From contig JAUXSK010000018.1 in the NCBI GenBank assembly GCA_030679995.1, forward strand, positions 1-41,827: a stretch of DNA of 41,827 bases. The letters run 5' to 3'. How positions within the stretch are numbered: the first letter of the stretch is position 1; each line of letters opens with the position of its first letter. The stretch comes from Candidatus Moraniibacteriota bacterium. GTDB taxonomy: Bacteria > Patescibacteriota > Minisyncoccia > Moranbacterales > UBA2206. Below the pieces are notes generated by a model. The model was not told the origin of the DNA. It saw only the letters and a list, made by a program, of their open reading frames with translations, and searched no databases. This document shows positions 27,112 to 29,063 of this stretch, piece by piece. The translations under genes were made by a program, and so were the position numbers.

Positions 27112-28254
27112 ATGTTTAAAAATCCAAATTCGACAGATCCGCAAGATGCGGTCAATGTCCAACAGCAAAATTTCAGCCAAGACAAAGATTTAAAAATTGA
27201 AGATGTCCCGATCCATACGATGGCGCAGGACCTTTATGAAATCGAACATCCCAATGAAAAAAAGGATATTGCCCAGGAAATACCCGTAAAAACCGTTATC
27301 GCTCAAAGCTTGACTGAAAAACAAAAAACCAGCCCATTCCTCAATCCTATCAAGGAAACAACACCGGAAAAGATCACACCCCAAGCAAAAACAGAGACAG
27401 CACCGGAACTGTTCAAAATAGATTCGCAGAAAAATACCGAGCCCGCAAGCAAAAACGGCGCGCTGGCGATTCTCGCTTCCATACTTATCCTTACGATTGT
27501 CGGTGCTGGTGTTTATTATTTCCTCTCGATCCAGAAAAAAAATATCGAGCCGGCCGTTGTCGTATCTCCTGAACCGGCCGCACCGGAGCCGGCCGTCGAG
27601 CAAGTTCCGGCGCCTGCCCCTGAATCGGCACCGGAATTATCCACAACGAATCCGAATTATTTGCCGATTGATATTGAAAACTCCGACAGCAACACCCTGA
27701 AAAATACGCTCGATGAATACGCGCAAAAAGTACAGAGCTCCGCAATACCCACATCAGTAGAATTTCTTATAGTCGACCAAAAAAATAATCCTATCACTTT
27801 TGACGTTTTCGCAAAAAAGCTTGGACTGGCCCTTTCCCCGATAGTTATGCAGAATATCGGCGCCGACTTCAGCTTATTCTTTTATAATGACCACTCCAAT
27901 ATGCGACTTGGCCTGGCCATTGATTCCAAAAATAACGCTTTACTAAAAACCAGTTTATCCAAAGAAGAGAAGTCGCTTGCGCAAGAATTACAACCGCTCA
28001 TCCTCCCGACCGGCTACGAATTCAACCCTGCGACCTTCGGTTCAGGCGACTACAACGGAGTGGCTATCAAATATCTGAACGCTTCCGGCATTGCCAATCT
28101 ATCTGTCGATTATGCCATCTCAGGCAAAAAATTGATTATTGGTACCAGCAAAATGACTGCCAGGGCGATTATAGATTATACATTAGCTACCGAGGAATCC
28201 TCAACGGCTGAAAACATAAAAGTCCCAACGGAAGGATCCGCTTTGATAAAATAA
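27112..28254 (+). CDS. Single-TM hypothetical envelope protein with Pro/Ala/Glu-rich linker
   Basis: TM (GALAILASILILTIVGAGVYYFLSI) followed by EPAAPEPAVEQVPAPAPESAPEL; no recognised domain. Confidence 0.65.
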   Translation: MFKNPNSTDPQDAVNVQQQNFSQDKDLKIEDVPIHTMAQDLYEIEHPNEKKDIAQEIPVKTVIAQSLTEKQKTSPFLNPIKETTPEKITPQAKTETAPELFKIDSQKNTEPASKNGALAILASILILTIVGAGVYYFLSIQKKNIEPAVVVSPEPAAPEPAVEQVPAPAPESAPELSTTNPNYLPIDIENSDSNTLKNTLDEYAQKVQSSAIPTSVEFLIVDQKNNPITFDVFAKKLGLALSPIVMQNIGADFSLFFYNDHSNMRLGLAIDSKNNALLKTSLSKEEKSLAQELQPLILPTGYEFNPATFGSGDYNGVAIKYLNASGIANLSVDYAISGKKLIIGTSKMTARAIIDYTLATEESSTAENIKVPTEGSALIK

Positions 28255-28485: not shown

Positions 28486-28514
28486 TTGACCCAGACCATT
28501 TTTCCTGCTATAAT
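28486..28514 (+). promoter_or_regulatory. Near-perfect sigma70 promoter of a noncoding transcription unit
   Basis: TTGACC - 17 nt - TATAAT. Confidence 0.85.
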
Positions 28515-28520
28515 AAAGAT

Positions 28521-29063
28521 ACTTGAACATTAAAAAGAGAAACAGGAAACGGTAGCGGAGTTTCAATCGCAATTTCCCCCTATTTGCGATTGAAACCTCT
28601 CTACTGTTCAAGCGTTTTGAGTAACATCTCAAAGCCGCCGTCGACTTCTGACCGACGGACCCTAAAACAAAAATAAAAAATTTTACTAAAAACAAAAATA
28701 AAAAGTAAAAAATGTTCTTTAAAACGGTTGGTAACTACCTCGGGCAGCAATTGCAAAATTGCTTCCAGAGGTAGTTACTAGCCACCATCAAAGGTCATTG
28801 ACCAGAGAATGGTTGAGAGAGAAAAGTGCCTAGTAAAGTCAGAAAGGTACAAGCGATATGCGTGATATCAATCACACGCCAGTCTTCTGTGACTCGATGA
28901 TTTCTTCACCCGGAATCAAAAAGTACAAAAAAGGCTCACGCGTCCACATATCGACGAACACTTAGGTGTCTGCATTGAGCCAAATTATATTATTATATTG
29001 GGTTTTCAACTCGCAGACACCTAGGTTTCTATATTTTAGCAGCACCTCAAGGGTGTTTTTTTG
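28521..29063 (+). ncRNA. Unassigned large structured noncoding RNA locus with boxA-like element
   Basis: No plus-strand ORF of 60 aa or more; stems 28522-28528/28606-28612, 28560-28572/28584-28596, 28726-28741/28768-28783, 28747-28752/28757-28762 (GCAA tetraloop), 28961-28973/29013-29025; boxA-like TGTTCTTTAAAA at 28713; terminator at 29043-29062. Confidence 0.7.

Follow-up and report, generated by a model that had tools for sequence, protein, structure and literature searches.

The segment at 28521-29062 of the analysed window (the whole 41,827-nucleotide stretch of Candidatus Moraniibacteriota DNA) almost certainly encodes a stand-alone functional RNA, on the strength of sequence comparison. 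The family to which it belongs appears to be new, in that no relation to any of the known families tested could be detected; the newness claimed is that of the family, function aside. The RNA is probably transcribed independently, is probably abundant, and would act in trans as a structured scaffold or riboregulator with a strand-exchange switch, outside the families of Rfam. A sequence-only reading had proposed an undescribed large structured noncoding RNA at this place, with its own promoter, boxA-like site and terminator. What it observed is confirmed and its interpretation was largely right, with exceptions in three of the elements it described.

The promoter is as that reading had described it, with the -35 sequence TTGACC at 28486-28491, a 17-nt spacer, and TATAAT at 28509-28514 inside the extended -10 TGCTATAAT. 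Among the homologues, TATAAT and the extended TG are each present in 57 of 65, and TTGAC at a spacing of 17 in 54, a few of the others being slips of the locator register onto TATACT-type boxes. There are 4 sites matching TTGAC-N15-TGNTATAAT in the 0.98 Mb of the strain's own genome, the promoter of the RNA among them. The 3' stem and the terminator CACC-TCAA-GGGTG-T7 that follows it were also found as proposed. A crude scan detected the terminator in 49 of 67 homologues, and it appears weak in the f137 homologues. The region folds much more stably than shuffled sequence, at -177.9 kcal/mol against -114.7 +/- 6.4 kcal/mol for dinucleotide shuffles (z -9.9; 0 of 100 shuffles as good), and the 13 bp hairpin GTTTCAATCGCAA/TTGCGATTGAAAC is present where it had been put. 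As had been stated, there is no plausible plus-strand open reading frame: the longest are short (median 49 codons), their positions are unconserved, and a conserved one was not found in the RNA or its homologues. A coding gene is therefore rejected.

A scan of a genome collection identified the carriers as Candidatus Moranbacteria / Moraniibacteriota, of the Parcubacteria group of Patescibacteria. The RNA recurs far more widely than chance would allow, blastn recovering it from 36 of the 37 genomes searched in the order. The R1 covariance model, built on the 5' domain, matches 118 of 131 genomes of the order at one locus each; these cover 61 of 66 genera, and among the good-quality genomes the figure is 95 of 105. 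Many genomes have a second, weaker R1 match, which is the opposite strand of the same hairpin. Over 286 genomes sampled from the class, R1 gave 18 matches, all within the same order. With a model of the hairpin only (R2), further and more diverged homologues were identified in the phylum (genomes G326, G333, G322, G401, G359 and G415), although occupancy outside the order is poorly measured, as class- and order-wide searches around G333 gave that genome alone. The conservation in relatives that the sequence-only reading had looked to as support is thus present in the order and, in diverged form, elsewhere in the phylum. Two contigs labelled Micavibrio (L122) and Saccharibacteria (L118) hold the Moranbacteria RNA and are probably misbinned. 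A single pattern match in IMG/VR is not matched by the covariance model; it is therefore taken as chance, and a viral origin is rejected.

Table 1. Features of the RNA gene; positions are those of the window.
Feature	Position	Strand	Description
Promoter	28486..28514	+	TTGACC-17-TATAAT with extended -10 TG; from sequence and conservation in homologues
Complete structured RNA gene	28521..29062	+	predicted start to terminator end; ~540 nt
P1, long hairpin	28546..28611	+	lower stem 28550-28558/28598-28606; upper stem 28562-28571/28585-28594
P1 apical loop	28574..28581	+	UUCCCCCU; UCCCCCU (28575-28581) nearly invariant
Putative switch strand	28597..28609	+	can pair with P1 5' strand or with 28807-28819; 28607-28609 as toehold
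P2, hairpin	28612..28636	+	7/8 tested pairs covary, two-set E<=0.05
P3, hairpin	28638..28658	+	compensatory changes in 3/4 tested pairs; 28640-28656 covaries
A-rich tract	28661..28711	+	conserved; AAAACAAAAAYAAAAA twice around short U run; takes lineage-specific hairpin insertions
GTTCTTT, boxA-like	28714..28720	+	conserved in most homologues
16-bp stem with GNRA tetraloop	28726..28783	+	lineage-specific insertion; strands 28726-28741/28768-28783
P4, mini-hairpin	28793..28803	+	GGY-N-RCC, then conserved AGAGAAUGG; 28795-28801 covaries
PX, downstream strand	28805..28819	+	28608-28808 passes all-pairs test (E<0.025); 5/13 PX pairs two-set E<=0.05
P5, hairpin	28826..28850	+	loop GUCAGAA 28838-28844; kissing partner of P3 loop
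P6, two-part long helix	28857..28950	+	28868-28945, 28877-28940 and 28878-28939 pass all-pairs test
P7, 3' hairpin	28957..29027	+	28960-29026 and 28961-29025 covary, under all-pairs threshold; CACTTAGGTGTCTGC/GCAGACACCTAGG
Intrinsic terminator	29043..29062	+	CACC-TCAA-GGGTG-T7; from sequence and homologue scan

Covariation was assessed in an alignment of 64 homologues, against a null in which columns evolve independently on the tree. The highest scores fall almost entirely on Watson-Crick or wobble pairs, and the P2 pair 28619-28630 has the top score of all column pairs. In the all-against-all comparison of canonically pairing columns only (>=80% canonical, tree-simulated null), 14 pairs reach E<=0.05, so that the covarying pairs anticipated by the sequence-only reading are found under a phylogeny-aware null. 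P6 supplies three of them. Without the canonical-pair filter a single pair reaches E<=0.05, the tree-based null being heavy. When the proposed helices alone are considered, two-set E<=0.05 is reached by 7 of 9 tested pairs in the lower stem of P1 and by 2 of 9 in its upper stem; among the kissing pairs 2 of 7 are significant, and in P4 1 of 4. The support for P3 comes from its compensatory changes and from 28640-28656, apart from the tree-null test. In alignment A2 the 3' half is too gappy for RNAalifold.

The loop of P3 (UUCUGAC, 28646-28652) pairs with that of P5, with covariation at 28650-28840 and 28652-28838. The two loops change together, to UUCUAAC/GUUAGAA, UUCUGAG/CUCAGAA or GUCUUAGC/GCUAAGA, and the two hairpins are jointly absent in L016, L026, L028 and a minimal subgroup. 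Comparison of the sequences establishes a conserved predicted fold in which several helices covary and the loops of P3 and P5 form a pseudoknot.

Three elements of the sequence-only reading stand in part. The helix CTTGAAC/GTTCAAG, thought to close the 5' domain, is in the sequence but is seen in the closest relatives only; its GTTC instead pairs, with covariation, with a GAA(T/C) about 200 nt downstream. The GNRA-capped stem is where it had been placed but is an insertion: of 30 aligned loci, L001-L006 and L008 alone have it. The GTTCTTT is kept in most homologues but is missing from the 16S leader of the same genome (L225, 11678-12112), and its identity as a boxA is unconfirmed. The A-rich tract before it is also present in L063 and L181. 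Unrelated hairpins have inserted into this tract in L007, L013, L025, L030 and L063, while its A-rich flanks are conserved.

In the homologues compared, the strand that forms the 3' side of P1 proves to be conserved for two predicted pairings, one local, in P1, and one with a strand ~200 nt downstream, in PX. The toehold pair 28608-28808 covaries strongly and lies outside P1. For complementarity with the downstream strand, the switch strand scores 9.51, where the best of the shuffles reached 6.95; the shuffle is one that ignores relatedness. The two folds are nearly equal in energy (PX minus P1 = 4.0 +/- 4.4 kcal/mol), and unconstrained folding gives P1 rather than PX in most sequences. In the minimal subgroup the exchange helix has been replaced wholesale, yet kept (CUUCCCCA/UGGGGAG and CUUUUCCG/CGGAAAGG). 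It is visible outside the class, in L063 and L064, and is less clear in f137. In the f137 loci L181 and L182, the 5' strand of P1, CACCTTTCGACC, can pair with an upstream GGTCGAAGGTG; the strand competition may therefore have shifted to the hairpin's opposite side. P1 and PX may well constitute a functional two-state switch.

The RNA usually lies in the order pnp, a membrane-type ORF (27112-28254 of the window), RNA, yraN, traR/dksA, lspA and comM, the Pfam families of the neighbours being UPF0102, zf-dskA_traR, Peptidase_A8 and Mg_chelatase. Counting only homologues whose sequence extends far enough, the upstream ORF is present in 62 of 65, and yraN and traR are present in 56 and 57 of 63 respectively. 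The gene order is kept around the diverged homologues of G333, G359 and G415; in G326 a cdaA-like gene is followed by the RNA and then traR. This G326 traR locus is a different neighbourhood, beside cdaA and ribosomal protein genes. In several Patescibacteria lineages (L165, L188, L189, L190 and L164) a traR/dksA-type zinc-finger gene is directly downstream. The upstream ORF, which has an 'IxTMxxDL' motif and a weak Pfam match only, represents an unnamed protein family linked to the RNA; its homologue in G333 matches DUF3352.

Such strong linkage to yraN and traR makes a role in cis the chief rival explanation. The RNA would then be a leader or attenuator of yraN/traR-lspA-comM, in which the choice between P1 and PX decides termination before yraN or traR. 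The linkage is kept across classes, the two pairings, of which only one can form at a time, are reminiscent of an expression platform, and the terminator, weak-looking in f137, sits before yraN. However, the terminator stem has no strand in common with P1 or PX, and, at ~540 nt and with its near-consensus promoter, the RNA is long to be an attenuator. The RNA has its own terminator and is not always upstream of the same genes, as a riboswitch or cis-acting leader would be: it occurs with neither yraN nor traR in L018, L099 and L091 and amid other neighbours in G034 and G036, and the genes downstream in L018, G034 and G036 are unrelated. The gene yraN has an extended -10 of its own in 19 of 57 loci. 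The promoter of the RNA, near-universal among homologues, its presence beside other neighbours and the promoter element of yraN favour an independent RNA. By these comparisons it probably acts in trans, and a cis-acting leader is unlikely, although other lineages may use the RNA in cis.

The most constant part of the RNA is the apical loop of P1. UCCCCCU is present in 55 of 55 rows of alignment A3, which excluded the three loci known to have lost it (L026, L055 and L056). The pattern scan favours members that keep the loop, and its invariance is therefore judged mainly from homologues found by blastn and covariance models. The loop is kept while the stem below it turns into GAGTACTAA or CGACCACTAA, is retained in G401, G359 and G415 despite a replaced stem sequence, and is unchanged in the f137 genomes, where the stem is now CGACCACUAA/UUAGUGGUCG or GAGUACUAA/UUAGUACUC. 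Such conservation makes it likely that the loop is the contact for a conserved partner, either a protein or a short stretch of RNA.

The exact 12-nt complement of the loop, AATAGGGGGAAA, occurs in the relatives essentially at the RNA locus alone. A long conserved pairing target, rRNA for example, is therefore rejected, and any contact with an RNA partner would have to involve fewer nucleotides. Shorter matches of the loop to E. coli rRNA are uninformative here because the strain's own genome holds only the start of 16S, its assembly (G000) ending within 16S at contig C2. In the 16S leader on that contig (L225:11966-11985) there is AATCGCAATTTTTTGTGATT, a hairpin with nearly the stem of P1 (AATCGCAA/TTGYGATT). 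This likeness is possibly chance and possibly a shared protein or RNase site.

C-rich seed loops are found in some Gram-positive sRNAs, and the invariant C-rich loop on its stable hairpin resembles these by analogy. It is possible to envisage a base-pairing regulatory RNA, in which UUCCCCCU binds the G-rich, Shine-Dalgarno-like sites of several mRNAs, and partial loop complements of 9-10 nt do occur in the genome. These complements are few, however, and none is shown at a conserved start codon. A seed loop would need no pseudoknotted fold of 540 nt, and L055, L056 and L026 have dispensed with the loop. This explanation is improbable, to about the same degree as the cis-acting leader.

For the preferred trans-acting RNA, a mechanism can be suggested. 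P1 would form first, during transcription. The toehold would then admit the invading downstream strand, and the 5' strand of P1 would be freed. The C-rich loop would be the docking site for the conserved partner, protein or RNA, and the RNA as a whole would serve as scaffold or riboregulator for a housekeeping process in reduced cells. A more specific version, put forward tentatively and with less confidence than the general one, is a bistable housekeeping RNA of Moranbacteria and their diverged Patescibacteria relatives, in which co-transcriptional strand exchange toggles the C-loop hairpin between two states that contact a core partner. Candidates for this partner would be the ribosome, RNA polymerase with TraR, or a membrane complex.

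No match to 28521-29062 was found among 4227 Rfam families. At gathering thresholds the whole window gave two tRNAs and nothing else, and permissive scans gave nothing credible in the region (up to E=5) or in 14 homologous loci (up to E=0.05). The expectation of the sequence-only reading that Rfam would give no match therefore holds for the window and these 14 loci. OLE, ROOL, GOLLD and raiA gave no match in the Rfam 15 scans, each model being assumed to be in the library copy. A literature search found no mention of the RNA, with thin coverage of subscription papers and preprints. The earlier failure to find signatures of RNase P, tmRNA or SRP RNA agrees with the model scans. The RNase P RNA (RF00010) is a separate rnpB gene at G000:C2:28744-29156 (106.9 bits, above the cut-off) and has no match at the element, so this identity is rejected. 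The tmRNA identity is also rejected: ARAGORN and Rfam (RF00023) are negative at the element, which is without a tRNA-like end, and 33 of the 37 genomes scanned in the order have a separate tmRNA above the cut-off. The strain's own assembly has none above the cut-off, probably an assembly gap because relatives have one. For SRP RNA, the small-SRP model RF00169 has no match anywhere in the own genome, and there is no Rfam SRP match in the window or the 14 homologous loci. The 6S RNA model (RF00013) has no match in the own genome. The 6S and small SRP identities are thus rejected or unsupported, since neither model matches and an SRP-type S domain was not seen.

A functional counterpart of 6S RNA, associated with the polymerase and working with the neighbouring TraR/DksA-type protein, is a separate question. 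Like 6S RNA, this would be a stand-alone RNA of housekeeping type. A traR/dksA gene adjoins it downstream, or lies one gene further, in several Patescibacteria lineages, and the own genome is without a 6S match. Unlike 6S RNA, it has a multi-helix conserved fold in place of the single long hairpin with a central bubble, it is not recognised by RF00013, and it is kept where traR is not adjacent. Such a role is very unlikely. That the RNA is a very divergent tmRNA, RNase P or SRP RNA would find some room in the own genome, where neither a small SRP RNA nor an above-cut-off tmRNA was matched, but it is largely refuted by the separate rnpB, the tmRNA genes of the relatives, the Rfam scans, and the lack of a tRNA-like end or SRP-type S domain.

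A large part of bacterial diversity belongs to the Patescibacteria, which have genomes of ~1 Mb and usually depend upon a host. A single-copy RNA of ~500 nt that is sustained in ~90% of an order's genomes, and can be recognised in other lineages of the phylum, is likely to have an important role. Large structured bacterial RNAs are rarely discovered and have led to new biology. In this case the conserved strand exchange and the near-invariant loop are concrete handles by which the function may be found. If the bistable reading is true, the RNA would be a universal-type component specific to this radiation.

Co-transcriptional strand exchange is known from the folding of E. coli SRP RNA and from the ZTP riboswitch. 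The Moranbacteria RNA would resemble these in having an early hairpin strand that is later captured by way of a toehold. It differs in being stand-alone and long, with both pairings covarying, and no ligand or expression platform was recognised in it. The raiA motif, too, is a structured non-coding RNA, compact and of unknown function, that is conserved beside housekeeping genes, but it is ~205 nt, has another neighbourhood and shows no similarity in the Rfam scans. The sequence-only reading had compared the RNA with the large ornate bacterial RNAs, among which are OLE, ROOL and GOLLD (PMC12286853), and this stands as an analogy. The likeness lies in a length of several hundred nt, an intricate conserved structure with kissing loops, a stand-alone transcript (predicted here) and a function inferred by comparison; there is no Rfam similarity between them. 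ROOL and GOLLD are largely borne by phages or prophages, near tRNA genes, whereas the gene for the Moranbacteria RNA is chromosomal, single-copy and set among housekeeping genes.
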